Below, in pieces: positions 842 through 57,450 of a DNA stretch of 64,000 nt (its first letter is position 1; each line of letters starts with the position of its first letter). Location: assembly GCA_012520405.1 (NCBI GenBank), contig JAAYOJ010000107.1, positions 1-64,000 of the forward strand. Reading direction: 5' to 3'. Origin of the DNA: Peptococcaceae bacterium (GTDB lineage: Bacteria; Bacillota; Desulfitobacteriia; Desulfitobacteriales; Syntrophobotulaceae). The notes under the pieces are model-generated. The model ran no database searches. It saw only the letters and a program-made list of their open reading frames with translations, and had not been told where the DNA came from. A program made the position numbers and the translations under genes.

Positions 842-1999
842 TCAGGAAAAGGCCTTGGCCAGCCTTTCCAGAGCTTTTTGCAGCGTTAATTTTGGGCAGG
901 CAATGTTGATTCGCTGAAAGCCTTCACCTTCGCTACCAAACGTCGTGCCGCTGCTTAGCCATAGTTTGGCATCCTCGATTATTCGTTTGTCGAGTTCCTT
1001 TTGACTCAGCCCATATTTTGAGAAGTCCAGCCACAGGAGGTAGGTGCCCTGGGGGTCCACCAGGCGGACCTTCGGCAGCCTCTCTGCCAAAAATATTCGG
1101 GTGAGGCGTATATTTTCGGCAAGATATTCCTTGAGCTGCTCCAGCCATATCCCGCCGTGGCTATAAGCGCTTTGACAGGCCACAAGTCCCAAAGTGTTCA
1201 GCTGATTGTAGCCGCCTTTGGCGATTTCTTCTTTTAGGGCGTGGCGTAAAGTCTTGTTGGGGACGATAATGTTGGACACTTGGAGACCCGCCAGATTAAA
1301 GGTTTTGCTGGGTGCGGTAGCGATGACAGCATTTTCGTCAATGAGCCCGAAAGTGGTATGTTTGTGTCCCGGATAGACAAAGTCACAATGAATTTCATCG
1401 GACAGTACCAGCACCTTATATTTCTTGCAGATGGCGTGCAGCGTGTCCAATTCCCGGCGTGTCCAGACCCGCCCCACAGGATTGTGGGGACTGCACAGAA
1501 TAAAGAGCTTTACGTTTTCACTCTTGATTTTATGTTCAAAATCCTCAAAATCCATGCTGTAAGCACCACTCTCATAGCGCAGTGGATTGGTTACCAGCTT
1601 GCGGCCGTTGTCGCAAATCACCGTGTAAAACGGATAATAGACCGGCGTCTGAATCAGCACGCTGTCTCCCGGCTTTGTGAAGGCGCGAACCGCAGCGGCC
1701 AGGGCAAACACAATGCCGGGCGTCTTGACCACATCCCTGGCCGTAAAGGTGTATCCAAAGCGCGCTGCAAACCAGCTCGTCAGGGCCTCGTAATAGGCAT
1801 CCTTTACTTCGGAATATCCGAAAATGCCGTGGGACACAGCCTTTTGCATAGCGGCCAGCACCTCGGGCGGGGCGGGAAAGTCCATGTCCGCCACCCAAAG
1901 GGGAAGAACATCCTCCGGCAGGCCCCGTTCCCGGGTAAAATCGTATTTGAGGGAATTGGTGTTCCGGCGGTCAATGACCGTATCAAAATCGTACTTCAT
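842..1999 (-). CDS. patB: MalY/PatB-type aminotransferase, cystathionine beta-lyase
   Basis: 385 aa, fold-type I PLP enzyme of the MalY/PatB family, which removes H2S, ammonia and pyruvate from cysteine or cleaves cystathionine to homocysteine. Visible landmarks are the N-terminal DRRNTNSLKYD, WVADMDF (about 35-41), PHNPVGR (171-177), DEIH (201-204) and the PLP lysine in APSKTFNLAG (Lys232). Its ATG overlaps the stop of the upstream cystathionine enzyme (ATGA), so the two are translationally coupled. Together they could run transsulfuration toward homocysteine or recycle cysteine sulfur. Confidence 0.9.
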   Translation of the reverse strand: MKYDFDTVIDRRNTNSLKYDFTRERGLPEDVLPLWVADMDFPAPPEVLAAMQKAVSHGIFGYSEVKDAYYEALTSWFAARFGYTFTARDVVKTPGIVFALAAAVRAFTKPGDSVLIQTPVYYPFYTVICDNGRKLVTNPLRYESGAYSMDFEDFEHKIKSENVKLFILCSPHNPVGRVWTRRELDTLHAICKKYKVLVLSDEIHCDFVYPGHKHTTFGLIDENAVIATAPSKTFNLAGLQVSNIIVPNKTLRHALKEEIAKGGYNQLNTLGLVACQSAYSHGGIWLEQLKEYLAENIRLTRIFLAERLPKVRLVDPQGTYLLWLDFSKYGLSQKELDKRIIEDAKLWLSSGTTFGSEGEGFQRINIACPKLTLQKALERLAKAFS

Positions 2000-3132
2000 C
2001 TAATTGCCTCCTCCAGATCGGCTATTAAATCTTCCGCCGCTTCAATACCCACCGACAGACGCAGCAGTCGATCGGTGATGCCTAGGGCCGTGCGGGTCTC
2101 CTCCGGCACATCGGCGTGGGTTTGCAGGATCGGATAAGTGATCAGCGACTCCACGCCCCCCAAGCTTTCAGCATAAAAAATCGTGCGCATACCACTGAGA
2201 ATGCGCCGGGCGGTTTCGGCGCTGTCCACCGTGAAGGAAATCATGCCGCCAAAGCCGCTGGCCTGCCTGCAGGATATTTCATAGTCCGGGTGTGAGGGCA
2301 GGCCTACGTAATGCACAGTGGACACCCACTCTCGCCTGCTCAGCCATTCAGCGATTTTCAAGGCGCTTTCCTGGATGCGTTGCATTCGTAGAGCCAGTGT
2401 TTTGATGCCGCGCTCGATCAGAAAGCAATCAAAGGGAGCAAGGCACGCCCCGATGGTTTTATAGAGAAAGCGCAGCTTTTCACTAAGCTCTTGGCTGTTT
2501 ATTACCAGAAAACCTGCCAGTGTGTCGTTGTGGCCGCCCAGGTATTTCGTGCCGCTGTGCAAAACCACATCGGCCCCCAGCTCCAGCGGCCGCTGGAAGC
2601 AGGGCGTCAGAAAGGTGTTGTCCACAATTAGCAGGATGCCTCGGTCTTTTGTGATTTTGGATACCGCTGCGATATCTGTAACCTGCATCATCGGATTGCT
2701 GGGCGTTTCCACGAAAATGGCTTTGGTTGACGAGCAGATACTGTGCTTCAGGCTATGTATATCGCCTGTGTGCAAATAGTCCACCGTAATGCCGTTTTTC
2801 TTCGCCACGTAATTTAGCAGCCGGACTGAACCGCCGTACAAGTCACCTGAGGCAATCAGGTGATCTCCGGGGGAAAAGAGCTCGATGAGGGTACTCATAG
2901 CCGCCATTCCGGATGAAAAGGCCATGGCGTCCAGACCGCTTTCCAGCGTGGCGACAGTCTTTTCCAGAACCTGACGGGTGGGGTTTTGCAAGCGTGAATA
3001 GTCGAAACCCGTGCTTTGCTCCAGGCCCGGATGGAAAAAGGTCGCCGACTGATAAATTGGGGTGGCGATGGCCCCTGTGGTGTTGTGGACATCTCTTGCG
3101 CCGTGGACGCAAAGGGTGTCAATATTTTTCAT
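1996..3132 (-). CDS. Cys/Met metabolism PLP enzyme (cystathionine gamma-synthase/lyase family)
   Basis: 378 aa member of the trans-sulfuration PLP family. It shows YSRLQNPT (45-52), SSGMAA (73-78), VDNTFLTP (about 170-177) and the PLP lysine in HSGTKYLGGHND (Lys196). Motifs do not separate cystathionine gamma-synthase (metB) from gamma-lyase or O-acetylhomoserine sulfhydrylase, so no symbol is given. It is the first gene of the operon with patB and the Rrf2 regulator and divergent from cysK, which places it in methionine/cysteine interconversion. An AAGGAG ribosome site precedes the ATG at 3132. Confidence 0.9.
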   Translation of the reverse strand: MKNIDTLCVHGARDVHNTTGAIATPIYQSATFFHPGLEQSTGFDYSRLQNPTRQVLEKTVATLESGLDAMAFSSGMAAMSTLIELFSPGDHLIASGDLYGGSVRLLNYVAKKNGITVDYLHTGDIHSLKHSICSSTKAIFVETPSNPMMQVTDIAAVSKITKDRGILLIVDNTFLTPCFQRPLELGADVVLHSGTKYLGGHNDTLAGFLVINSQELSEKLRFLYKTIGACLAPFDCFLIERGIKTLALRMQRIQESALKIAEWLSRREWVSTVHYVGLPSHPDYEISCRQASGFGGMISFTVDSAETARRILSGMRTIFYAESLGGVESLITYPILQTHADVPEETRTALGITDRLLRLSVGIEAAEDLIADLEEAIR

Positions 3133-3164
3133 AGCAGCGCTCCTTAAAGGGTTTTACATTTAAA

Positions 3165-3183
3165 TAATTATTGGTTATAATTA
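3165..3183. promoter_or_regulatory. Perfect inverted repeat, candidate Rrf2 operator
   Basis: TAATTAT (3165-3171) and ATAATTA (3177-3183) form a perfect 7-bp palindrome around TGGTT. It sits 33 bp upstream of the operon's first start codon, where a promoter would lie. Rrf2 regulators bind AT-rich dyads of about this size, and the operon encodes one. Assignment to that regulator is inference. Confidence 0.45.
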
Positions 3184-3322
3184 ACCTACTATCCCTATAT
3201 GTTTATGTGCATTATATGGCCGGTGGGGCCGAATGTCAATAAGGGGCCGGCAGCATAACTAAGTCAATTTTCGTTCAAAAAAGGCACACTTCTCAAAGCG
3301 TGGAATGAAAGGTTATTATATT

Positions 3323-3344
3323 TACATACTAAGCTACATACTAA
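3323..3344. promoter_or_regulatory. 12-bp-spaced direct repeat upstream of cysK
   Basis: TACATACTAA occurs at 3323-3332 and again at 3335-3344, just upstream of a weak promoter-like TTGAAT/TAATAT pair (3351-3377). Such phased direct repeats often bind regulators. No protein can be assigned. Confidence 0.3.
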
Positions 3345-3419
3345 AAATATTTGAATTGGTGACATTGTAGATAATATCCTTGCATCCGGAATATAATGCA
3401 TGTATTAAGGAGGTACAAC

Positions 3420-4352
3420 ATGGCAAAGGTTTATAAAAGTCTCACCGATCTGATTGGAAAAACCCCGCTGTTAGAGCTTGGAAACTATGCAAAAAAGCAG
3501 GGCCTTGGTGCCACCATAATTGGCAAGCTGGAATATTTCAACCCTGCAGGAAGCGTGAAGGACAGAGTCGCGCTGGCCATGATTGAGGATGCTGAAGCAA
3601 AGGGTCTGCTTTCCCCTGAGTCTGTCATTATTGAGCCGACCAGTGGCAATACCGGCATTGGCCTGGCGTCGGTTGCTACCGCACGGGGATATCGGGTCAT
3701 ACTTACCATGCCGGAGACAATGAGTATTGAACGCAGAAATTTACTGAAAGCCTACGGTGCGGAGCTTGTGCTGACAGAAGGTGCCAAGGGCATGACCGGA
3801 GCGATAGCTAAGGCGGAAGAGCTGGCCAAAGAAATTCCTAAGGCCTTTATCCCCGGTCAGTTCGATAACCCGGCAAATCCCGAGATTCACCGGAAAACAA
3901 CAGGTCCTGAGATTTGGGGGGACACTGACGGAAAGATTGATTTTCTTGTTTCCGCTATCGGTACCGGCGGCACGATTACGGGTACCGGCGAATACTTGAA
4001 ATCTAAAAACCCCAACATAAAAGTGGTCGGTGTGGAGCCGGAAGCTTCCCCTGTGCTCTCCGGCGGTGTCGCAGGTCCCCATATGATTCAGGGAATCGGG
4101 GCCGGTTTTGTCCCCAAGGTTTTGAACACGACGGTCTATGATGAAATCATACCTGTGAAAAACGAGGATGCCTTTGCCGCCGGCAGGGAGCTTTCCAAAA
4201 CAGAAGGGTTACTGGTGGGTATTTCCTCCGGAGCGGCTGTTTGGGCAGCCACTGAGTTAGCCAAGCGACCCGAGAATGCCGGAAAGCTGATAATCGTAAT
4301 TCTGCCCGACACCGGTGAACGCTATCTCTCCACCCCGCTATTTTCCGAATAA
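3420..4352 (+). CDS. cysK: Cysteine synthase A (O-acetylserine sulfhydrylase)
   Basis: 310 aa from the ATG at 3420, which has AAGGAGG at 3407-3413. An upstream in-frame ATG at 3396 would put that Shine-Dalgarno inside the gene, so it is rejected. CysK joins sulfide to O-acetylserine to make cysteine. It shows the PLP lysine in NPAGSVKDR (Lys47), the TSGNTG substrate loop (74-79), the [10 protein letters not shown] phosphate-binding loop and the GISSGAA segment. Length is normal for CysK. It is transcribed divergently from the transsulfuration/Rrf2 operon, which suggests shared sulfur control. Confidence 0.93.
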
Positions 4353-4418: not shown

Positions 4419-4448
4419 TTGACAAAAGCTTTATGTAAATTTTACAAT
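4419..4448 (+). promoter_or_regulatory. Sigma-A type promoter of the aldehyde oxidoreductase operon
   Basis: TTGACA (4419-4424), an 18-bp spacer, then TACAAT (4443-4448). Transcription would begin near 4455, leaving a leader of about 320 nt before the first gene. Confidence 0.7.
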
Positions 4449-4499
4449 ACAGTTAAGGCATAATTATGAAATAATAAAAGAAATATATCACAAACGAGT

Positions 4500-4610
4500 G
4501 GTGGACGAGCCTCTCTTCAAATCCAAAAATATTTGGCCTTTTTATGTCATGACGGTGATTTTAGATTAGGCCATTTAGTTTCTGGGTTAGAGGAGAGTTT
4601 TTCCTTTTTT
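4500..4610 (+). ncRNA. Structured 5' leader with intrinsic terminator (riboswitch/attenuator candidate)
   Basis: CTCTCTTC (4511-4518) pairs with GAGGAGAG (4590-4597) and, after one A-A mismatch, AATCC (4520-4524) pairs with GGGTT (4584-4588). TTTTTCCTTTTTT follows immediately. Nested inside, TGGCCT (4534-4539) pairs with AGGCCA (4568-4573), and the palindrome GTCATGAC lies in the apical part. A terminator this elaborate inside a leader suggests conditional readthrough into the molybdoenzyme operon. It does not match the Moco, purine, fluoride or THF riboswitch signatures as I recall them. Confidence 0.5.
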
Positions 4611-4650
4611 ACCAACTTTTAGAGGATTTTTTACTTTTATTTTTATTTAA

Positions 4651-4731
4651 GCCAAATATTGGCTTTGCAGAAGTGGTATCTTTTAATACTAATTATTTAA
4701 TATTAATTATTTAGTATTAATTATTTTATTT
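4651..4731. repeat. Short hairpin followed by a 14-bp AT-rich tandem repeat
   Basis: AAGCCAA-ATA-TTGGCTT forms a 7-bp hairpin near 4650. It is followed by TAATTATTTAATAT (4690-4703), TAATTATTTAGTAT (4704-4717) and a decayed third copy to 4731. This lies in the leader between the terminator-like structure and the first start codon. Function unknown. Confidence 0.55.
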
Positions 4732-4775
4732 TAATTAACTGGTATCCTTATAATTTATGGAAAGGGTGAAACACA

Positions 4776-7613
4776 TTGAAAAAACTATCCAGAATTATTC
4801 TAACGATCAATGGTGTTCAGCGGCCTGTGGTCTGCGAACCGGACAAGGACAACCTTGCGGTCGTGATTCGCAGGATGGGCCTGACGGGCACCAAGATCGG
4901 CTGCGGTACGGGCGTTTGCGGCGCTTGCTCCGTAATTCTAAACGGTGAGGTGGTCCGTGCCTGTACGAAGAAGATTAGGAATGTTCCTGAATTCAGTGAG
5001 ATTACGACGATTGACGGTATTGGTACTCCTCAACATCTCCATCCTCTGCAGCAAGCTTTTATTACTTATGGCGGGGTCCAGTGTGGCTTTTGTTCACCAG
5101 GCTTTATAGTATCGGCCTACGCTTTGCTGAATCAAAACACTAATCCTACCCGGGAAGAGGTTAGAGAATGGTTCAGAAAACATAGAAATATCTGTCGCTG
5201 CACCGGATATAAACCGATTGTTGATGCCGTAATGGCTGCAGCTAAGGTAATGCGCGGCGAAGCGACCGTAGAAGATATTACTTACGATTTTGCAGGCGAG
5301 AAAGATATTTACGGCTCCAAACATCCAAGACCTTCTGCTTTGGCTAAAGTTTGCGGCTTGGCCGATTATGGTGATGATATCAAACTCAAGATGCCCGAAG
5401 GAACAGCTCATCTGGTTCCTGTTTTATCGGAAGTTCACCATGCTAATATTATTAGCATTGATATTTCTGAAGCGGAAAAAATGCCTGGTGTATATAAGGT
5501 AATGACCGCTAAAGACGTTAAAGGTACGAATAACTTGTTTGTTCCGCCTTTTGTTCCACGCCATAAAGGAAAAGGGGTAACGGACTGGCCGGTTATTGTG
5601 GATAAAAAGATCAATAGGCGCGGGGAAGTAGTCGCTCTGGTTGCTGCTGATACAGAAGAGCATGCTCGCGAAGCTGCTAAAAAAGTTAAGCAGAACTTAG
5701 AAGTGCTCCCGGCTTATATGACTCTGCCTGAAGCGGCTATGCCTAACGCTATCCAGCTTCACGAGGGCACACCTAACCTGTATATGGAACAGCCTGTCTT
5801 TAAAGGAGAAGATCCTGCGGAACTTATTGACAATGCTCCTATTAAAGTAGAAGGAAGTTTCCATTCCCAGCATGAACCACATCTTCCCATTGAACCTGAA
5901 GTCATTCAAGGGTATATTGGTGCTGATGGTATGTATACCCTGCAGAGTAAATCCCAGGCTATTGGAGAGAACAGAGACGACATTGCCGGAGCCTGTGGTA
6001 TTCCCAAAGAAAAAATCCGCATTATTTTGAATGCTGTCGGCGGTTCTTTCGGTTACTCTGTCAGCCCCAATACCAGTGCCTTGGTTATGACTGCTGTACA
6101 GAATCTGGAAATGCCTTGCACCATGACCTTAAAATACGATGAATTTAACCATACTACCGGTAAACGTTCCGCAACCTTTACCAATGGCCGGATTGCCTGT
6201 GACAAGGACGGCAAGATTATTGCAGCGGAATACGATCTTGGTCTCGACCACGGCGCTTACGCTGTGATGGGCGGCAAGATTTTCAATAACTTAGTTTCTG
6301 TCGGTTTCCACGGATACAATATCCCTAATTTCAAAGCTCTGGCTCGCGGCGGCTCCTCTAACCAGGCCTTCAATGCTGCTTATCGTGGTTTCGGTGCTCC
6401 GCAAGTTTATACTGCTACAGAGGCTTTAATTGATATGTTGGCGGAAAAAGCGGGAATGGATCCTTGGGAATTCCGTTATAAGAACGCGGCTCGACCTGGA
6501 GACCTTACCATTAATAGCCGTCCTTACCATGATTATGTCTATCCCAAATTGTTAGAAACAATTAAACCCTACTATGATGATTATAAAGCGAAAGCCGAAG
6601 CCGGTAAGAAAGAAGGACGTAATCTCGGTGTCGGTATTAGCATGGGTGGATTCATTATTACCCTCGGCTTTGTGGATTGTGCCGAAGTTGCCCTTGAACT
6701 CAATCCAGACGGAACTTTTACTCATTACTGCACCTGGCAGGATGTAGGCCAAGGCGGCGATATCGGTGCCCTCACTCATGCCGTGAAAGCACTGGAACCT
6801 CTTGGTGTCAAAGCGGATCAGGTTCGTCTTGTCATGAACGACAGTAAAACCTGTCCGGATACCGGTGTAGCTGCTGCCAGCCGTTCCCACTACAGCGGTG
6901 GTAATGCTACCATCGATGCTGCTAATAAGCTTATGGATGCTATGCGCAAACCTGACGGCACCTACCGCACCTATGATGAAATGGTCAAGGAAGGCATCCC
7001 GACTAAATATGTTGGCCACTTCGACCAGTTTAACATCGGATTGTCCAAGGGCCTTGATCCCAATACCGGAGAAGGTGAAAAGAACCCGACTTATATGTAT
7101 TGCGTTAATACTTGCCTGGTTGAAGTTGATGTCAACACCGGCAAGACCCAGGTCTTAAGCTATACTTGTGTGGCTGACGTCGGTATTATCGGCAACAGAC
7201 TGGCTGTTGAAGGCCAAGCCTATGGCGGCTTGTCTCACAGCATCGGTTTTGCTTTAAGTGAAGATTACCAGGCCTTAGATAAACATGGCAATATGGTGGG
7301 TTGTGGTATCCCGACCATTGACATGATCCCGGATGAAATGAATGTTATTCTCTTAGAGGATAATCCGCGTGAAACCGGACCTCATGGTTCCTGCGGCTGC
7401 TCCGAGTGCTTCCAGTCTTCCGGTCACATGGCCGTGATCAATGCTATCAATGACGCTTGCGGTGTTCGCATTTACGCTTTGCCGGCAACCCCGGACAAAG
7501 TTAAAGCGGCCTTAGAAGCCAAACAACGCGGTGAAGACCTTACTCCTCCGAAGTATTATCTTGGAACAGACTTCGAGGAAGAAATGGAAATGATTAAGAA
7601 CAATCCTATCTAA
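4776..7613 (+). CDS. Molybdenum-dependent aldehyde oxidoreductase (Mop/xanthine oxidase family)
   Basis: 945 aa, single-chain molybdenum hydroxylase without a FAD domain, like Desulfovibrio gigas Mop (907 aa), which oxidises aldehydes to carboxylic acids. Domain order: plant-type [2Fe-2S] (Cys43, 48, 51, 63), helical [2Fe-2S] (Cys103, 106, 140, 142), then two molybdopterin-binding domains with GGSFGY (422-427), YRGFGAPQ (536-543), QDVGQGGD (655-662) and the catalytic glutamate in GCSECFQSS (Glu877, aligned with Mop Glu869). The segment GSCGCSEC before the glutamate is unusually cysteine-rich compared with GASGVGEL of Mop. No in-frame TGA is present, so it is not a selenoprotein. It is the first gene of the operon. 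Substrate unknown; aldehyde oxidation is inferred from Mop similarity. Confidence 0.92.
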   Translation: MKKLSRIILTINGVQRPVVCEPDKDNLAVVIRRMGLTGTKIGCGTGVCGACSVILNGEVVRACTKKIRNVPEFSEITTIDGIGTPQHLHPLQQAFITYGGVQCGFCSPGFIVSAYALLNQNTNPTREEVREWFRKHRNICRCTGYKPIVDAVMAAAKVMRGEATVEDITYDFAGEKDIYGSKHPRPSALAKVCGLADYGDDIKLKMPEGTAHLVPVLSEVHHANIISIDISEAEKMPGVYKVMTAKDVKGTNNLFVPPFVPRHKGKGVTDWPVIVDKKINRRGEVVALVAADTEEHAREAAKKVKQNLEVLPAYMTLPEAAMPNAIQLHEGTPNLYMEQPVFKGEDPAELIDNAPIKVEGSFHSQHEPHLPIEPEVIQGYIGADGMYTLQSKSQAIGENRDDIAGACGIPKEKIRIILNAVGGSFGYSVSPNTSALVMTAVQNLEMPCTMTLKYDEFNHTTGKRSATFTNGRIACDKDGKIIAAEYDLGLDHGAYAVMGGKIFNNLVSVGFHGYNIPNFKALARGGSSNQAFNAAYRGFGAPQVYTATEALIDMLAEKAGMDPWEFRYKNAARPGDLTINSRPYHDYVYPKLLETIKPYYDDYKAKAEAGKKEGRNLGVGISMGGFIITLGFVDCAEVALELNPDGTFTHYCTWQDVGQGGDIGALTHAVKALEPLGVKADQVRLVMNDSKTCPDTGVAAASRSHYSGGNATIDAANKLMDAMRKPDGTYRTYDEMVKEGIPTKYVGHFDQFNIGLSKGLDPNTGEGEKNPTYMYCVNTCLVEVDVNTGKTQVLSYTCVADVGIIGNRLAVEGQAYGGLSHSIGFALSEDYQALDKHGNMVGCGIPTIDMIPDEMNVILLEDNPRETGPHGSCGCSECFQSSGHMAVINAINDACGVRIYALPATPDKVKAALEAKQRGEDLTPPKYYLGTDFEEEMEMIKNNPI

Positions 7614-7842: not shown

Positions 7843-10125
7843 ATGAAGCTTGAGGATGCCACTCGGTATACGGAAAAGTGTTTCAATGGAGAGCCTGCAT
7901 CTTGTTCTTATGCCTGTCCGTTTCACCTGGATATCCGTTCCTTTCTGGAAAAGGTGAGTAGAGGAAGGTGGGTTCCGGCCTATAAAGTGCTGCGCAATGC
8001 CGTAATTTTTCCTGGGATAGTCAGTGTTTTGTGTGACGAACCCTGTCGAGAGCATTGCCAACGCACCTTGCTCGGTGACGAGGCTTTAGCAATGCTTGAT
8101 TTGGAAGCAGCCTGTATCAAGTATGCTAAAAATACCAAACCTGAATTCTTTGCCATACCGCCAAAGTCTGAGCGTGTTGCTGTAATTGGAGCGGGGGTGT
8201 CAGGCTTAGCCTGTGCGCTTAATCTGGCACAGAAAAAGTATTCGGTCACGGTGTTTGAAAAAGAAAGCGGTTGGGGCGGAAAGCTTCCCAATGGAGAACG
8301 GCTTAGTTCTCATCCGCGTTTTGCTGATTTTGACCAAGATATTGCTTTGCAATTTTCTGCTGTGGATGTTGAGTTTCGCTATGGCACGGAAATCAAATCG
8401 CTAACAGAACTCGCCGACTTTGATGCTATTTATATTGCTACAGGTAAGGGTGGAGATTCCTTTGGACTCCTTGCCAGCTGGGATGCAGAGATGTTTACAA
8501 CTTCCGAGCCCAAGGTATTTATGGGTGGTACGCTGTGCGGAGTCTCCAAAATGGAAGGCATTGCCCATAGTGTCCAAGCATCGAAGATAATGGAGGCTTT
8601 CTTGCAGACGGGGAAGGCTTCCTTAGTGAACGCTCAAGTCTATGATAAGAAAAATTGTGAACGTTATTTAAAACATGATGGGGCGGTATCTGTACCGCGG
8701 GTGATTGCTTCTTCTCCCGATGGTTATACTGAAGAGGAGGCCAAAAAAGAGGCAGCACGTTGTTTGTTATGTGATTGTGATTATTGTATAGCTTCCTGTG
8801 AAATGCTGCAGAAATTCCGGAAGAAACCCCATAAAATTGCGGTGGAAGTTGCTACGGATATGCAGGTGACGGGTAATTTAGCCAGCCGTGCTCTTACCAG
8901 ACAGACTTATTCCTGTAATCTCTGCGGTCATTGCAAATCCGTTTGCCCGGAGGATGTTGATATCGGGGCCTTGCTTCAATCTTCGCGTACGGCAAGAAAA
9001 AACGCAGGCGGCGAATCCTATCCGGCTGCCTTTCATGATTTCTGGCTACGAGAAATGGATTTTGCCGTTTCCGAAGGGTTTTTAGCTGCGACCCCCAACG
9101 GAAAAAATGAATGCGAATACGCTTTTTTCCCGGGTTGTCAGCTTGGGGCCTTCAATCCGGATTATGTGCTGAAATCTTACGAATTCCTGAGTAGTAAATA
9201 CGATTGCGGGATTTTGCTTAATTGCTGCGGTGCTCCGGCTTACTGGGCCGGAGATGAGAGTTTGCTGAATGAAAATATGGAAAAAATCAAGCAGGCTTGG
9301 AATGAGATGGGACAACCCACCTTGGTGTTTGCCTGCGCGACCTGTGAGAGTATTTTTAATATGTTTTTGCCCGAAATAAAACGGGTTTCACTTTATGCTT
9401 TATTAGCCGAAGAAGAGGGGATTTCATCCATTCGCCCCTATGATGAAGCCGTGGTTTTTGATCCCTGTAATGCCAGGAACAATCATGGTTTGGAGACCGG
9501 CGTAAGGAAACTTGCCACTGAAGCCGGTATTAGCTTGCATGAATTGAAGGAACCAAATCGTTGTTGTGGTTATGGTGGGCATATTCGCCTGGCAAATTCA
9601 AGTTTGTACGAAGAGATAGCCCAGCACCGGGCTGAGGCCAGTGATAAACCCTATATTGTTTATTGTGTGAATTGTCAGGACGTTTTTGCTCGGCGGGGTA
9701 AGGAATGCAGCCACATTCTGGATCTGGTTTTCGATCTGAAGAAGGGGCTTAAGGTACCCACTTTAGACCAAAAAAGGGCCAACAGTGTGGAGGTCAAAAA
9801 GATTCTGATGAAAAAAGAATGCGGTATTGATTTTGAGCCTGAGACCCATGAATGGGATGGACTTAAACTCCTTATCAGTGATGAAATGCAAAAGGATATG
9901 GAAAACAAGCTAATTTCTGCTGCCGATCTTAAAGAAGCGATCTGGCAGGCTGAAAGTTCCGGATATAAGTTTTATAATGAAAGTGAAGGCTTGTTTATGT
10001 GCAGTATGATCAAGCCGGTAATCACTTATTGGGTTCAGTATAAAGAAATTGCACCCCAAACCTATGAGATTGTCAGTGTCTATTGCCACCGCATCCATTT
10101 CAAGGAGGAGGTCAAACAGCCGTGA
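7843..10125 (+). CDS. FAD-dependent Fe-S oxidoreductase fused to HdrD-like CCG domains
   Basis: 760 aa composite electron-transfer protein. Domains in order: a glutamate synthase small-subunit-type N-terminal Cys region (Cys21, 25, 64, 68, 72), an FAD Rossmann motif VIGAGVSG (114-121), two Cys clusters (CLLCDCDYC from 307; CNLCGHCKSVCP, Cys358/361/364/368), then two heterodisulfide reductase-type CCG segments (NCCGAP at 460-465, RCCGYGGH at 573-580), and a roughly 100-aa C-terminal domain I do not recognise. Mop-type enzymes lack FAD, so this is the likely electron partner of the aldehyde oxidoreductase. Its acceptor (NAD(P)H, ferredoxin, thiol/disulfide) is unknown. The stop overlaps the next start (GTGA). 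Confidence 0.85.
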   Translation: MKLEDATRYTEKCFNGEPASCSYACPFHLDIRSFLEKVSRGRWVPAYKVLRNAVIFPGIVSVLCDEPCREHCQRTLLGDEALAMLDLEAACIKYAKNTKPEFFAIPPKSERVAVIGAGVSGLACALNLAQKKYSVTVFEKESGWGGKLPNGERLSSHPRFADFDQDIALQFSAVDVEFRYGTEIKSLTELADFDAIYIATGKGGDSFGLLASWDAEMFTTSEPKVFMGGTLCGVSKMEGIAHSVQASKIMEAFLQTGKASLVNAQVYDKKNCERYLKHDGAVSVPRVIASSPDGYTEEEAKKEAARCLLCDCDYCIASCEMLQKFRKKPHKIAVEVATDMQVTGNLASRALTRQTYSCNLCGHCKSVCPEDVDIGALLQSSRTARKNAGGESYPAAFHDFWLREMDFAVSEGFLAATPNGKNECEYAFFPGCQLGAFNPDYVLKSYEFLSSKYDCGILLNCCGAPAYWAGDESLLNENMEKIKQAWNEMGQPTLVFACATCESIFNMFLPEIKRVSLYALLAEEEGISSIRPYDEAVVFDPCNARNNHGLETGVRKLATEAGISLHELKEPNRCCGYGGHIRLANSSLYEEIAQHRAEASDKPYIVYCVNCQDVFARRGKECSHILDLVFDLKKGLKVPTLDQKRANSVEVKKILMKKECGIDFEPETHEWDGLKLLISDEMQKDMENKLISAADLKEAIWQAESSGYKFYNESEGLFMCSMIKPVITYWVQYKEIAPQTYEIVSVYCHRIHFKEEVKQP

Positions 10126-10319
10126 GTACTGGGGAAAAAAACTGGAAGTGTGCCAAATGCGATAAGCAATTGGTTCTGAAAAATACGGACTTTTTCTACC
10201 TCGGGCATAAGTTTACCTACGATGTCTTAAATTGTCCTCAGTGCGGCAAAGTATTGATCCCCAAGGAACTAGCCGAGGGTAGAATGGCGGAATTGGAAGA
10301 AGCCTTGGAAGATAAATAA
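10122..10319 (+). CDS. Small zinc-ribbon redox protein
   Basis: 65 aa from GTG 10122, preceded by AAGGAGGAGG (10102-10111) and overlapping the previous stop by GTGA. An upstream in-frame ATG at 10083 would lie deep in the preceding gene and is rejected. Two CxxC pairs (WKCAKCDK and NCPQCGK) about 30 residues apart indicate a zinc ribbon or rubredoxin-like metal site. The C-terminus is a short acidic helix. Small CxxC-CxxC proteins of this kind accompany Mop-type aldehyde oxidoreductases (the DVU_1557-type redox protein, from memory). A role in electron transfer or metal handling is inferred. Confidence 0.75.
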   Translation: MSTGEKNWKCAKCDKQLVLKNTDFFYLGHKFTYDVLNCPQCGKVLIPKELAEGRMAELEEALEDK

Positions 10320-10352
10320 GATTTTCGAATCAGAGAATTAGGAGGGTGACCG

Positions 10353-11480
10353 GTGGGGAAAATCGCAGCGCTGATTCCGGCTGCCGGGTATTCATCAAGA
10401 ATGGGTCTTTTTAAGCCGCTTTTGCCGATAGCATCTTCCCTGGTGCTGGAAAAGCCCATTAAGGCTTTTAGGACAGCCGGGGTAGAGGACATTCTGGTGA
10501 TTACGGGTCATAAAAATTTTTTACTGGCGCCTGTCCTAGAAGGTTTAGGGGTTAAAGCTGTCTATAATTCAAGATTTGACCAGGGGATGTACTCCTCAAT
10601 CCAAGCCGGAGTTGCGGCTTTGCCGGAGGATACAGAAGCTTTTTTTCTTTTGCCGGCAGATTATGCCGTGGTCTCTTCCGCTGTTATTAGCCAAATATTA
10701 GAGAAATACCGGCGGGAGCCACACCAGGTTTTTTATCCCACTTATAATGGGGAAAGAGGGCACCCGCCTTTGATTTCGGCTGAATTGCGGCCTTATATTC
10801 TGGAAGGGGAAGCCGATGGAGGATTGAGAGGGTTACTGGAGAGCATAGTGACGGATTATGCGGAAATTCCAGTGGATGATGAAGGAATTTTACAGGACCT
10901 TGATACCGAGGACGATTACCGCAGTCTGGTCCAAAACCAAACTGGGTTAGCTCCTTATCCCACTCGCAGAGAGTGCGAGGGGGTTTGGCAAAAGTATGAA
11001 ACTCCCCGGCCGGTGATTCTTCATGCGCAGCAAGTAAACAGGGTGGCTTGTACACTCTGTGAATACTTGAACAGTCGGGGTTTTTTGCTTCATACGGCTT
11101 TAGTCCAAGCCTGTGCCTTGTTGCATGATGTGGCTAAAGGTGAAAAACAGCATGCGGCCAAGGGTCGGCAGATAGTGAAAGAGATGGGATATGAGGAGGC
11201 CGGGGAGATTATTGGCTCCCATATGGATCTCCCGAGCAAACACCTTGCCGCTGTCGATGAATATTCTATTCTTTATCTGGCAGATAAATTGGTCCAGGGA
11301 AGTGAGCTTGTTTCTCTGGAAAAGAGACTGGCGGAACAAAGCAAACGTTATGCCCATGATACTTTAGCCTTGACCAGTATGCATGAACGTATGGGAAAAG
11401 CAAGGCAGGTACAGCAAAATATTGAGAACATTCTAAGCATACCTTTAAGCGAGTTGTTTCCCGAACTTGCAAGAGACTAA
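10353..11480 (+). CDS. MobA/MocA-like nucleotidyltransferase fused to an HD domain
   Basis: 375 aa, GTG start with TTAGGAGGG 7 nt upstream. Residues 1 to about 190 form a molybdenum cofactor nucleotidyltransferase-type domain: AALIPAAGYSSRMG (about 5-18), the KPLL lysine, and the metal-binding LLPADYA. Such enzymes attach CMP (MocA) or GMP (MobA) to molybdopterin, and Mop uses the cytosine dinucleotide, so a MocA-like role fits. Residues about 220-375 are an HD phosphohydrolase domain with HDVAK (His258-Asp259) and HxxxGxxI-like helices. The HD partner is not part of standard MocA and could hydrolyse a nucleotide or pyrophosphate product. The activity split is inferred. Confidence 0.8.
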   Translation: MGKIAALIPAAGYSSRMGLFKPLLPIASSLVLEKPIKAFRTAGVEDILVITGHKNFLLAPVLEGLGVKAVYNSRFDQGMYSSIQAGVAALPEDTEAFFLLPADYAVVSSAVISQILEKYRREPHQVFYPTYNGERGHPPLISAELRPYILEGEADGGLRGLLESIVTDYAEIPVDDEGILQDLDTEDDYRSLVQNQTGLAPYPTRRECEGVWQKYETPRPVILHAQQVNRVACTLCEYLNSRGFLLHTALVQACALLHDVAKGEKQHAAKGRQIVKEMGYEEAGEIIGSHMDLPSKHLAAVDEYSILYLADKLVQGSELVSLEKRLAEQSKRYAHDTLALTSMHERMGKARQVQQNIENILSIPLSELFPELARD

Positions 11481-11483
11481 GTT

Positions 11484-12167
11484 ATGAAAAAAACGGTTTA
11501 TTTATTAAGGCACGCCGAGCCGATACACCTTTTCCAAGAAAAATATTATTTAGGGCAGTCTGATCCGCCCTTAAGTGCAAAGGGGAAAGAGCAGGCCCAG
11601 CTGCTTTCTGATTTTTTAAGTACTATTAAGCTTTGTGCAATTTTTAGCAGCGATTTACAGCGGTCGGTGCAAACCGCTCTGCCTATCGCTGAAAAACATA
11701 GCTGTCCCCTCCGGATAATCAAGGAATTAAGAGAGATTAATCTGGGCCGGTGGGAAGGACTCCGGAAAGCAGAGGTTAAGGCTTTATATCCCGGCGAATA
11801 TGAACTGAGAGGGCTGGATTTAGTCTCTTACCGCCCGCCGGAGGGTGAAAGTTTTGCTGATCTGCAGAAAAGAGTGGTCCCTGTTTACCGGGAGATTATT
11901 GATAGTTGTGACGGGGATATCATTATTGTTTCCCACGCCGGGGTAAACCGGGTAATTCTATGTGACTTGCTTGGTGTTCCTTTAGATAATCTTTTCAATA
12001 TTAAACAAGAATATGCTTGTGTGAATGTTATTAACTATTTAGATAAAAAGGGGAGTAATTTTCAGTATGAATATTTACAGCAGCCTTTTAAAGGATCTGA
12101 CCGGCGGCAGGAAAGTTGTCATGGTGACTTCTATGACCAGGGACACCTGTCAAAAGCCAAGAACTAA
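11484..12167 (+). CDS. Histidine phosphatase family protein
   Basis: 227 aa phosphoglycerate mutase-like phosphatase of the CobC/GpmB type. The phosphohistidine motif is LLRHAEP (about 7-13), followed by DLQRSVQTA, the GRWEG segment and the second catalytic histidine in IVSHAGVNR. It starts 3 nt after the nucleotidyltransferase stop. The last 101 nt overlap the next gene in another frame, giving a charged tail (about residues 195-227) not needed by the fold. CobC-like members dephosphorylate nucleotide-loop intermediates. A phosphatase step on a cofactor intermediate or CoA-related compound is possible here. Substrate unknown. Confidence 0.8.
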   Translation: MKKTVYLLRHAEPIHLFQEKYYLGQSDPPLSAKGKEQAQLLSDFLSTIKLCAIFSSDLQRSVQTALPIAEKHSCPLRIIKELREINLGRWEGLRKAEVKALYPGEYELRGLDLVSYRPPEGESFADLQKRVVPVYREIIDSCDGDIIIVSHAGVNRVILCDLLGVPLDNLFNIKQEYACVNVINYLDKKGSNFQYEYLQQPFKGSDRRQESCHGDFYDQGHLSKAKN

Positions 12168-13143
12168 AAAAGATTATTATACTGAAGATCAAATCGAAGA
12201 CCCGAGCTTTGGTTTACAATTGCCGGATGATGTTAGGGAAGGTATTAAACAGTCCTTGCATTCAGGAGAACTCTTGGTGACGGAAAGCAAGGAGCAAACA
12301 AAGGAACTGAATATTATTGAGCCCTTTTTTCCTCAACCCAGGCTTATTGTTTTGGGAGGAGGGCATATCGCTAAACCCGTAACGGAATTTGCGGCCAGAC
12401 TGGGCTTTGCTGTTACCGTAGTGGATGACCGTCTGTCCTTTGCTAATAAGGAACGTTTTCCGCAAGCAGATCAGGTTATTTGCGAAAGTTTCGAGCGCAG
12501 TTTTGATGTACTGAATTTTGATGCCTATACCTATGTGGTGATTGTAACCAGGGGACACAGGTACGATTTGGATTGCTTAAGGCAAGTAATCCAGCGCAAA
12601 TGGGCCTATGCCGGTATGATAGGTTCTCGCAAACGAGTGAAAGGGATTAAGGACCAATTAATAGCTGAGGGTTTTGACCCGGCAATATTGGCCAAGGTCA
12701 ATGCTCCTATAGGTTTGGAGATTGGTGCGGTAACCCCGGAAGAAATCGCTGTTTCTATTCTGGGTCAGGTAATTAGCTATCGCCGACTTCGGGAACCGGC
12801 TTTGGGCCGAGCATCCGCTAAAATCAGCTGGACAGAGTTCGACCGCGAGGTGATCGAAGAATTAAGTAAAGGCAAGGATGATCCCAAAGCTTTGGCTACA
12901 GTTATAATGACCAAAGGTTCTGTACCCAGAAGAGCGGGAGCCAAAATGCTTATTTGGCCGGATGGCAGGATTTTGGGCAGTATCGGTGGAGGATGCAGCG
13001 AAGGTATGATTATTCGCCAAGCGCTGGATATTATTAACGAAGCTAGTTGCACCATCCACAGGATAGATTTAACCGCTGAGATCGCCGAAGAAGAAGGTAT
13101 GGTCTGCGGAGGGGTTATGAAGGTACTGATCGAAGCTCTATAA
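12067..13143 (+). CDS. XdhC-like molybdoenzyme maturation factor with swapped domain order
   Basis: 358 aa. XdhC/CoxI proteins insert and sulfurate the molybdenum cofactor of xanthine oxidase-type enzymes. Here the Rossmann XdhC_C domain comes first (GGGHIAKP, 97-104; VVDDR; GSRKR), while the XdhC_CoxI motif set (GSVPRRAGAKML from 284; GSIGGGCSE about 304-312) is at the C-terminus. The usual order is the reverse. The N-terminus (MNIYSSLLKDLTGGRKVVMV) still looks like the start of a normal XdhC_CoxI domain, which suggests a circular permutation or insertion. The start overlaps the phosphatase gene by 101 nt and has AAGGGGAG upstream. It most likely matures the aldehyde oxidoreductase. Confidence 0.85.
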   Translation: MNIYSSLLKDLTGGRKVVMVTSMTRDTCQKPRTKKDYYTEDQIEDPSFGLQLPDDVREGIKQSLHSGELLVTESKEQTKELNIIEPFFPQPRLIVLGGGHIAKPVTEFAARLGFAVTVVDDRLSFANKERFPQADQVICESFERSFDVLNFDAYTYVVIVTRGHRYDLDCLRQVIQRKWAYAGMIGSRKRVKGIKDQLIAEGFDPAILAKVNAPIGLEIGAVTPEEIAVSILGQVISYRRLREPALGRASAKISWTEFDREVIEELSKGKDDPKALATVIMTKGSVPRRAGAKMLIWPDGRILGSIGGGCSEGMIIRQALDIINEASCTIHRIDLTAEIAEEEGMVCGGVMKVLIEAL

Positions 13144-13174
13144 TCAGCCACGATCAGTCTGACGGAGGATAAAA

Positions 13175-13858
13175 ATGAGCGGCTTGAAGGAAGCTAAGAA
13201 TATTTACGAGCAAGGACTCATGGAACAAGTTATGGGCCGGACCTTAAGGCCGGGAGGGTATAAAATTACGGAAGAAGCCCTGGGCTTATGTGCTTTTCCT
13301 AAAGACGCCGCTATATTGGATATAGGCTGCGGGAGCGGAGCCACCGTACAGCTTTTAAGAAAAAAATATTCTCTGGATGCCCGGGGGCTTGACATCTCTA
13401 AGGAAATGATCAGACGAGGAAAAAATATTTGTTCCGAGCTGCCGCTGGTGCATGGCGATGCTCATAGGCTACCCTTTGCCAATAATGAATTGCAAGGGGT
13501 ATTTTTGGAGTGTAGTTTTTCCCTTTTTTCAGAGCAACAGAGGGTTTTGGCGGAAATAAACAGAGTACTTAAAAAAGACGGCAAAATTGTAATCAGTGAT
13601 TTTTATTATCGGCAAAGGCCTGGTAAAACCAAGCCTGATATTATTGAACTAATAGAAAAATCCGGGTTCAAGGTGGATATATGGCTGGAAAAGTCTGAAC
13701 ATCTTCATCAATTAGTGGCAGATTGTATTCTTAATGATTTTTCCCTGGATCTGTTATGGTGCTGTATGCTGAACAAAGAAGAAAACAAGGGTTGTACTAA
13801 AGAAGAAATAAAAAAATGGAAACCGGGATATTTTTTGCTTATCGCGAGCAAATGTTGA
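13175..13858 (+). CDS. Class I SAM-dependent methyltransferase
   Basis: 227 aa. Motif I is ILDIGCGSG (about 47-55), followed by the acidic DARGLDIS end of strand 2 and VHGDAHRLPF (motif II). This is a UbiE/Methyltransf_11-like fold. It starts with ATG 13175 after a GGAGG site. Position between XdhC and the C_GCAxxG_C_C protein matches the DVU_1556-type methyltransferase of Desulfovibrio aldehyde oxidoreductase loci (from memory). The methyl acceptor is unknown; it could be a cofactor intermediate, a protein or the substrate. Confidence 0.8.
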   Translation: MSGLKEAKNIYEQGLMEQVMGRTLRPGGYKITEEALGLCAFPKDAAILDIGCGSGATVQLLRKKYSLDARGLDISKEMIRRGKNICSELPLVHGDAHRLPFANNELQGVFLECSFSLFSEQQRVLAEINRVLKKDGKIVISDFYYRQRPGKTKPDIIELIEKSGFKVDIWLEKSEHLHQLVADCILNDFSLDLLWCCMLNKEENKGCTKEEIKKWKPGYFLLIASKC

Positions 13859-13895
13859 TTTAGTTTTGGAGTATGGAATAAGGAGGTTTTGGGCA

Positions 13896-14318
13896 ATGGC
13901 AAGCAAAGTCCGACTATATGAGCTGAAGCAGAAAGGGTATTGCTGCAGCCAGATTATTATGAAGGCAGGGCTGGAGGATGCCGGTAAAGAGGACAATCCG
14001 GATTTGGTCCAAGCTATGTCCGGCTTATGCGACGGCTTGCGTACGGGCATGGTGTGCGGAGTTCTTAGTGGCGCGGCTTGTCTTCTCGCTTTGCTGGAAC
14101 CTGAAGATTCTCCGGTGTTAATTAAAGACTTGACGGAATGGTTCCGGGGCGAGTTTGAAGAAAAAAACGGCGGAATTACCTGTGAGGATATTTTGGCCGG
14201 AGACCAGTTAAACCGTACTATTAAATGTCCGAAAATATTAACGGAAACCTACAATATGGCTATGGAAATACTGGAAGCCAACGGGTATGAATTCCCGGAT
14301 TCTTATGTTCCCGGATGA
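13896..14318 (+). CDS. C_GCAxxG_C_C family redox/metal protein
   Basis: 140 aa from ATG 13896, with AAGGAGG at 13880-13886. An upstream TTG (13866) would place that site inside the gene. The protein carries the spaced cysteines of the C_GCAxxG_C_C family: GYCCSQ near the start, LCDGL, VCGVLSGAACLL, ITCEDI and KCPKI. Members of this family are small helical proteins suspected of metal or redox cofactor binding. Location matches the DVU_1555-type protein of aldehyde oxidoreductase clusters (from memory). No biochemical role is established. Confidence 0.78.
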   Translation: MASKVRLYELKQKGYCCSQIIMKAGLEDAGKEDNPDLVQAMSGLCDGLRTGMVCGVLSGAACLLALLEPEDSPVLIKDLTEWFRGEFEEKNGGITCEDILAGDQLNRTIKCPKILTETYNMAMEILEANGYEFPDSYVPG

Positions 14319-14350
14319 ACAAAAAGTAAAAACGGAAAGGAAGAACAAAA

Positions 14351-14743
14351 ATGTTAATTGCGGTTGCTGCCAATGGAGAAACTCTGGAAGATCGGGTTGC
14401 CAAAAGATTTGAGGACAGTACATGTTTACTTATTGTAAATATGGAAGATATGAGTTTTGAGGTTTTTAAAAACCATAGTGCGGGAAGCGGGTCGGGAATT
14501 GATATGGCTAAGATTATCACCGAGAAAGATTGTGAAGCGGTAATAACGGGCAGTATAAAGAGAGAGGCCTTTGAAGAACTGATAGAAACACAGGTTACCC
14601 GTTATAACGGGGCTGATTATACCGCCAGAGAGGCCCTCGACCTCATGGAAAAATATCGGTTGGATCTTGTCCGTTATTATGAAGGTGAGGACCCGGATTT
14701 TCATATGTTACATCGAGGTAGTTGCGATTGTTCCGATCATTGA
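14351..14743 (+). CDS. NifX/NafY-like molybdenum cofactor-binding domain protein
   Basis: 130 aa. The N-terminus MLIAVAANGETLEDRVAKRFEDS and the later CEAVITGSIKREAFEELIE follow the dinitrogenase iron-molybdenum cofactor (NifX/NifB C-terminal) fold, an RNase H-like domain that carries metal clusters. The C-terminus HMLHRGSCDCSDH adds Cys and His residues that could bind metal. No nitrogenase genes are near, so it more likely handles molybdenum for the aldehyde oxidoreductase. The last 22 nt overlap the CoA ligase start region. Confidence 0.72.
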   Translation: MLIAVAANGETLEDRVAKRFEDSTCLLIVNMEDMSFEVFKNHSAGSGSGIDMAKIITEKDCEAVITGSIKREAFEELIETQVTRYNGADYTAREALDLMEKYRLDLVRYYEGEDPDFHMLHRGSCDCSDH

Positions 14744-16089
14744 ATAAAGAAATTGACAAGACTCCTTTAGAAGACTGGATAGCCCGCAAAATCGGTCTCA
14801 AAGCGGGAGAGTTAACCCAGGAAGCCCTTGATACATACCAACTAGCCCAGATTCGCAAAACTATTGCTTGGGCGAAAGAAAAAAGCAGCTTTTACAGGGA
14901 GAGATTCTGTGCTGTGGAGCCGGAGTCTATAACTGATTTTTCCCTTTTTTCAAAGCTGCCTTTTACTTTTCCCCGGGATATCAGGCATAATCCCCAGCGG
15001 CTGGTTTGTACCGGACAGAAAGATATTGCACGCATTGTAACCCTTAAGTCTTCGGGTACCACCGGTCAACCGAAACGGATTTTTTTTACGCCGGAAGACC
15101 AGCAACTCACTATTGATTTTTTTGATACTGGCATGAGAAATTTAGTGGGGCCGGGGGACAGGGTTCTCATCTTGCTGCCCTGGAGGCAGCCGGGTAGTGT
15201 TGGGGACCTATTAAAGACGGGCTTGGAAGGTTTGGGGGCCAAGGCCATTTTGTTTGGGCCGGTGTCCGATGCCGAAGAGGCCGTTAAGATTGCCCTTCAA
15301 TCTAAGGCTAATTCCATGGTAGGCATTCCTACCCATGTCTTGGCCATGGCCCGCAGTAAGAACGGCAAGTTATTAAGCGGGCGCTTAAAAAGTGTTTTAT
15401 TGAGTACGGATTATGTACCTCGCTCCATATGTATAGCACTGGAGAATATTTGGGGATGTAAAGTATTTAACCATTACGGGATGACGGAAATGGGGCTCGG
15501 TGGTGGGGTGCAGTGCCCTGCCCTTGCAGGATATCATTTGAGGGAAGCGGATCTTTATTTTGAAATTATTGATCCGGAAAGTGGCCAGGTCTTAGATGAA
15601 GGGGAAACGGGGGAGATTGTTTTTACTACTCTCACCCGGGTCGGAATGCCTCTTATTCGTTATCGGACCGGAGATTTAAGTCGTTTTATCCCTGGCAAAT
15701 GTCCCTGTGGTACTGTTTTGCGCAGTATGGAAGTTGTTAGAAGCAGAATTGCAGGGCAAATAAAACTTCAGAATCACTCTTTATCTATTGCCGAATTAGA
15801 TGAAGTTTTGTTTTTGTTTGATGAAGTTGTGAATTACCAGGTGAGAATAGACAGGGATTCCGGAATGGACTGCCTATATATAGATATTAAGATGAGCGAA
15901 AACACCCTTGTGAGCAAAGATAAAGATTTTAAGGACCGGATTTGCCGAGCTTTGCGATGCATACCTGCTATCCAGAATGAATTTCCGCTAAGTAAGCAAA
16001 TTGTAATTATAAATTCCGGTAACAGTGTACCCTTCTCCACGGGGACCGGAAAAAGAAGTATTATTGATAACAGATTTAATAATGATTAG
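14722..16089 (+). CDS. AMP-forming CoA ligase, phenylacetate-CoA ligase-like
   Basis: 455 aa adenylate-forming enzyme. ATP motif LKSSGTTGQPKR (108-119), YGMTE (252-256), and the RYRTGD hinge near residue 315 followed by a C-terminal lid domain with a CPCG pair. It resembles phenylacetate-CoA ligases and the DVU_1553-type ligase of aldehyde oxidoreductase loci (from memory). The start is uncertain: TTG codons at 14722, 14728 and 14740 are in frame, with GAGGT at 14715-14719 favouring 14728. It could activate the carboxylic acid made by the aldehyde oxidoreductase, or act in cofactor maturation; the sequence cannot distinguish these. Last gene of the tightly packed operon. Confidence 0.8.
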   Translation: MRLFRSLNKEIDKTPLEDWIARKIGLKAGELTQEALDTYQLAQIRKTIAWAKEKSSFYRERFCAVEPESITDFSLFSKLPFTFPRDIRHNPQRLVCTGQKDIARIVTLKSSGTTGQPKRIFFTPEDQQLTIDFFDTGMRNLVGPGDRVLILLPWRQPGSVGDLLKTGLEGLGAKAILFGPVSDAEEAVKIALQSKANSMVGIPTHVLAMARSKNGKLLSGRLKSVLLSTDYVPRSICIALENIWGCKVFNHYGMTEMGLGGGVQCPALAGYHLREADLYFEIIDPESGQVLDEGETGEIVFTTLTRVGMPLIRYRTGDLSRFIPGKCPCGTVLRSMEVVRSRIAGQIKLQNHSLSIAELDEVLFLFDEVVNYQVRIDRDSGMDCLYIDIKMSENTLVSKDKDFKDRICRALRCIPAIQNEFPLSKQIVIINSGNSVPFSTGTGKRSIIDNRFNND

Positions 16090-57361: not shown

Positions 57362-57450
57362 GTGGTTGCTCTTTTACCACAACCGCTCGAATTAGGTATT
57401 TAACAGGTTGTCATAACCGACCTAACAAGGCGAGTCTGGGTCGAGGAGGT
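57362..57450 (+). ncRNA. Ribosomal protein L21 leader
   Basis: The segment between promoter and rplU contains TGGTTG...CAACC pairing, CCGCTCGAATTAGGT and CCTAACAAGGCGAGTC, which pair (AGGT/ACCT-type and CTCG/CGAG) and resemble the L21 leader, the autoregulatory 5' structure that binds L21 in Firmicutes. Recognition is from the characteristic sequence and position. Confidence 0.75.

Follow-up and report, generated by a model that had tools for sequence, protein, structure and literature searches.

A candidate transcription attenuator preceding aldehyde oxidoreductase and tungstate uptake operons in an uncultured Peptococcaceae genus

Comparison of the leader with described elements

Small RNA structures that compete with a transcription terminator are known from several antitermination systems. 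In the LicT/BglG type, the RAT, a short conserved hairpin, shares sequence with the 5′ arm of an intrinsic terminator, and the bound factor favors readthrough. ANTAR targets possess two hexaloops with A1 and G4, and T-box leaders form a terminator/antiterminator pair with UGG in the antiterminator. The Moco/Tuco riboswitch (RF01055) is linked with genes for the molybdenum and tungsten cofactors, and its third helix has been associated with Moco rather than with the tungsten cofactor (Regulski et al., 2008; PMC2408646).

The window examined here is a 64,000-nucleotide stretch from a Peptococcaceae draft genome (GenBank assembly GCA_012520405.1, contig JAAYOJ010000107.1, positions 1–64,000). The leader at positions 4419–4775 contains a 23-nucleotide (nt) element that can form a hairpin, P1, and that recurs in two further genomes. 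The three genomes are drafts from one uncultured Peptococcaceae genus, 93–96% complete, and are designated G000 (the source of the window), G001, and G002. P1 resembles the RAT as a short, conserved hairpin that shares sequence with the 5′ arm of an intrinsic terminator and whose bound factor would favor readthrough, but the element is unlike the RAT consensus. The LicT-type CAT_RBD domain was detected in none of the three genomes and in all four control genomes, and a LicT/BglG-type protein was rejected as the P1 binder because of its absence from the carriers. P1 shares with ANTAR targets a small hexaloop hairpin that overlaps a terminator. However, its loop, GGACGA, lacks A1 and G4, and a second possible hexaloop was seen only in leaders of the aldehyde oxidoreductase (AOR) operons. 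An ANTAR protein was absent from two of the three drafts, which are 93–96% complete, and was present only in G002. ANTAR was also rejected as the binder because the protein is not common to all carriers and the loop does not fit. The leader shares the terminator/antiterminator pair and UGG in the antiterminator with T-boxes, but has no Rfam match and only ~19–65 nt before the element, which is too little for Stem I.

The likeness to the Moco/Tuco riboswitch consists of the molybdenum/tungsten cofactor gene theme and, by eye, the common 7-mer CGAGCCU, but the multi-helix junction was not seen in the leader. The RF01055 covariance model did not match the leader either at the gathering level or at E values up to 10. 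The leader matched no Rfam family at gathering level, and the three sub-threshold matches at E up to 10 were chance matches that included no riboswitch. Thus, the original prediction that the leader differs from Moco and other catalogued riboswitches was borne out. The sole gathering-level Rfam family in the entire window was a ribosomal protein L21 leader (RF00559) far off at 57371–57447. Genuine RF01055 Moco riboswitches are present in the same genus before moeA, a FecCD-type permease gene, and an SsuA-like ABC transporter gene, and the third helix was present in each of the four that were examined. As these riboswitches sit on other genes, the new element covers genes that the Moco riboswitches found here do not. 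Literature searches on tungstate together with riboswitches or antiterminators, and on tupA together with aldehyde oxidoreductase leaders, turned up nothing on the 23-nt element. As the hairpin also precedes the tungstate uptake operon in each of the three searchable genomes of the genus, the element has the look of a new genetic switch for enzymes of molybdenum and tungsten.

Promoter, terminator, and operons

The leader was proposed originally to combine a near-consensus promoter with a 14-position long-range stem, a nested helix, a palindrome, and a T5CCT6 tract, and each of these features was recovered. A sigma-A promoter (TTGACA-18-TACAAT; 11 of 12 consensus matches) is located at 4419–4448 on the forward strand, as are all other window features of the leader and operon described here, and transcription probably starts near 4455. 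The long stem pairs CTCTCTTCAAATCC at 4511–4524, which forms the terminator 5′ arm and overlaps P1, with GGGTTAGAGGAGAG at 4584–4597, the 3′ arm, at 13 of 14 positions. The pairing probability of the 3′ arm with the element was 0.94, a value reached by none of 200 shuffles. The nested apical helix (GGCC/GGCC) spans ~4535–4572 with the palindrome GTCATGAC at its tip (4546–4553), and this tip, GTCATGACGGTGA, is retained in AOR leaders only. The T5CCT6 tract follows the long stem at 4598–4610. Its CC is predicted to pair with GG at 4503–4504, and the working U-tract is therefore probably the last T6 (4605–4610). Folding energies compared to dinucleotide shuffles gave z = −4.0 for 4480–4625 and z = −4.9 for 4508–4601, and none of 200 shuffles was equally stable in either case. 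A simple terminator scan, which admits loops of 3–8 only, reported no terminator in the leader. The interval between the terminator and the start codon contains, within 4649–4748, the palindrome AAGCCAAATATTGGCTT (4649–4665), which is not conserved in the nearest relative, G001, and an A/T-rich stretch between two GGTATC repeats; G001 retains the two repeats.

The first gene (4776–7613) begins with TTG and encodes a molybdopterin-dependent aldehyde oxidoreductase that scored above the NCBIfam cut-off (NF045668). The remainder of a DVU_1551–1559-type gene row at 7843–16089, which is probably co-transcribed, encodes a dicluster oxidoreductase, MocA-HD, a CobC-like phosphatase, XdhC, a methyltransferase, a C_GCAxxG_C_C protein, a FeMo-co-like protein, and an AMP-dependent CoA ligase. 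The MocA-like and XdhC proteins are maturation factors. The second operon associated with the element, tupABC-AFOR-thiF, encodes a tungstate transporter with TupA-like, TupB-like, and ATPase components, an oxidoreductase of the AFOR family, and a protein resembling ThiF/MoeB. Among tungstate-specific NCBIfam families, the match to TupA was the only one and that to TupB the best, both below the curated cut-offs. A second AFOR gene lies on the DNA that carries the tup operon (1775–3655, reverse strand), divergent from the operon and beside apparent TRAP transporter genes.

A 23-nucleotide element detected in one genus

The element, GAGYGGTGGACGAGCCTCTCTTC, occupies 4496–4518 in the window and begins just 5′ of the long stem noted earlier. 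It was found in six leaders in the three genomes, with exactly two copies in each genome: one before the AOR operon and one before the tup operon. Only one pyrimidine varies in the consensus GAGYGGUGGACGAGCCUCUCUUC. The 23-mers matched at 22–23 of 23 positions, and the remainder of the leaders was 36–78% identical. A TTGACA promoter lies before each of the six copies, in the form TTGACAAAAG-N14-TAMAAT. The TTGACAAAAG promoter string was rejected as a mark of the regulon as it is also located before tRNA genes and inside an apparent coding region. The −35/−10 spacer (4425–4442 in the window, and in the five sister promoters) is partly dyadic in some copies, including AAAGTT-N7-AACTTT in the tup leader of G001 and AGGAT-N7-ATCCT in the AOR leader of G002, and could be a repressor site.

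Might the element itself be a DNA site? A transcription factor could bind the inverted repeat GAGNGG-N8-CCNCTC, which lies 3′ of the promoter, with the stem-loop acting as a plain terminator. The repeat is perfect and the promoter spacers are also partly dyadic. However, the center of the element is fully conserved and its 3′ half is more conserved than the 5′ half, its distance from the −35 box ranges from 55 to 101 nt across the six leaders, a spread of 46 nt, and it invariably forms the terminator 5′ arm. Together, the variable promoter distance and the more conserved 3′ half fit an RNA better than a DNA operator, and the operator reading is very unlikely.

Searches outside the genus employed the 23-mer with three mismatches in 74 genomes of the order and 399 of the phylum, the exact pattern in 84,980 species genomes, and a covariance model, R1, in 83 genomes of the class and the 399 phylum genomes. 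DNA searches of relatives confined leader matches to the three genomes, and the pattern search found no copy in the other 71 genomes of the order. The 84,980-genome scan returned four contigs from two Peptococcaceae MAGs, which evidently are two of the three carriers, together with 11 single matches in unrelated organisms, where a few are expected by chance. The two of these 11 that were inspected both look protein-coding. Model R1 scored the six real sites at 50–55 bits; the next best match in the class, at 25 bits, is apparently coding, and the sample of 399 phylum genomes added nothing. The outside matches that were inspected are apparently protein-coding or palindromes adjoining 5S rRNA, and the numbers of the other phylum-pattern and genome-contig matches resemble those of a reversed control pattern. 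Homologues of TupA and AOR from other genera had no copy of the element upstream. The original proposal was to fall if homologous leaders showed no conservation or covariation; it survived this check inside the genus, but the element was absent from every homologous operon of another genus that was examined. The searches point to no credible copy outside the genus.

In one family of the same order, the operons of AOR homologues have TTGGCAT-N5-TTGCA, a promoter of the sigma54 type, and their conserved leader is another one, AAAGAATGGGAGGAAC...TTTGYCAGTTGTTC...GGGGAAATTTGCTTTACTG, which had no Rfam match where tested. In several genomes of this family, hairpins such as GAAAGGCGGACGAGCCTTTCGCC whose loop is also GGACGA adjoin apparent 5S rRNA; these are probably an unrelated palindromic repeat.

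Predicted mutually exclusive hairpins and the putative signal

Folding of the element alone predicted the P1 hairpin (4496–4515) in each of the six leaders. Its arms are GAG/CUC (4496–4498/4513–4515) and GGU/GCC (4500–4502/4509–4511), separated by a pyrimidine–U mismatch and closed by the hexaloop GGACGA (4503–4508). The 3′ half of the element doubles as the 5′ arm of the terminator, and P1 and the terminator stem are therefore predicted to be mutually exclusive. When only the element and 20 nt were folded, P1 probability was 0.97–1.00 in the six leaders, and it dropped to 0.00–0.21 once the folded stretch reached the T-run. Thus, P1 is predicted to be displaced in every leader when the terminator 3′ arm appears. 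The element paired with the 3′ arm at probabilities of 0.74–0.96, which were matched by only 0–3 of 200 shuffles per leader in which the element was fixed and the remainder shuffled, and folding energy z values were −3.1 to −6.8. With the entire 5′ leader included, early P1 was strong in four leaders, moderate in the AOR leader of G002, and weak (0.06–0.61) in that of the window. In two tup leaders, the energy advantage of the terminator state was only 2.4–2.5 kcal/mol.

Compensatory changes affect the two sides of the terminator stem at several positions, among them A-U/C-G at position 25, A-U/U-A/G-C at position 31, and A-U/G-C at position 34. The P1 stem offers none, as it is invariant in these three genomes of one genus. 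The 3′ arms differ between leaders. That of the AOR leader in G002 ends CCGUCCAC, which pairs with GGUGGACG and is followed by T6, and in the window and G001 the GGA is paired by UCC, which accounts for the odd T5CCT6 tract. The 5′ element therefore has remained constant while its terminator partner drifted. A plain terminator with constant readthrough, in which the element is kept merely as terminator sequence, is consistent with the strong stem followed by a T run in all six leaders, but is highly improbable: the 3′ arm has drifted and the 5′ arm has not, and the GGACGA loop is invariant even in the tup terminators in which its bases stay unpaired. Terminator pairing alone is thus insufficient to explain the conservation, which points to recognition of GGACGA or the element by something besides the terminator. 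One such factor might be CsrA, whose binding to the GGA of the P1 hexaloop would decide between the two structures. All three genomes encode this protein. The core of CsrA sites is ANGGA, which the GU that precedes GGA does not fit, and an invariant 23-nt site restricted to two molybdenum/tungsten operons would be unusual for this protein; its involvement is extremely improbable.

In each of the six leaders, folding and shuffling computations place a promoter ahead of an exclusive antiterminator and intrinsic terminator, both of which precede the first gene. These comparisons lend good support to an attenuator whose antiterminator and terminator structures exclude one another, and it is rather likely that the leader is a cis-acting transcription attenuator in which a factor that holds P1 permits readthrough. 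RNA polymerase would start near 4455 and P1 (4496–4515) would be made first. If P1 were unheld, the 3′ arm (4584–4604) would pair with the same bases to form the intrinsic terminator, and transcription would stop before the aldehyde oxidoreductase gene. A specific factor on P1 would block the terminator and the operon would be read. Binding to P1 would turn the genes on. The original view that the layout denotes a riboswitch or attenuator stands for the attenuator in the comparison of six leaders, but the shared part is a single 20-nt hairpin plus 3 nt, which is small for an aptamer. It is more like a protein-binding antiterminator than an aptamer, and the factor that binds P1 is most likely a trans-acting protein and not a small molecule.

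The tup operon has the switch in the same arrangement as the AOR operon, such that a single signal would turn on the enzyme and the metal supply together. In a strict riboswitch, P1, perhaps with the apical helix, would bind a small ligand: tungstate, the tungsten/molybdenum cofactor, or a pathway metabolite. This alternative is unlikely. The layout of the leader fits it, both operons are concerned with molybdenum/tungsten-pterin enzymes or tungstate uptake, and the Moco riboswitches sit on other genes, the four examined having the Moco-type form that leaves the tungsten side over. In contrast, only ~20–23 nt are shared between AOR and tup leaders, which is small for a selective aptamer, and a metal-repletion signal should act oppositely on importer and enzyme, whereas both have the switch arranged alike. 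It is quite unlikely that the element is an RNA of a new kind that senses tungstate or the tungsten cofactor in cells with ordinary Moco riboswitches; such an RNA would be among the smallest natural aptamers. The common arrangement in front of importer and enzyme suggests a demand signal, either the substrate or a regulator that responds to it, and not simple metal repletion.

Overall, the best reading of the predicted folds is a new family of transcription attenuator. It would place a tungstate importer and two kinds of pterin aldehyde oxidoreductase in a single small regulon, joined by an RNA element absent from the catalogues searched. The hairpin offers a defined 20-nt bait with which to look for the ligand or RNA-binding regulator; the genomes concerned already rely on Moco riboswitches for other molybdenum genes. 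Should the signal prove to be tungsten, the element would close a gap among RNAs that sense metals.
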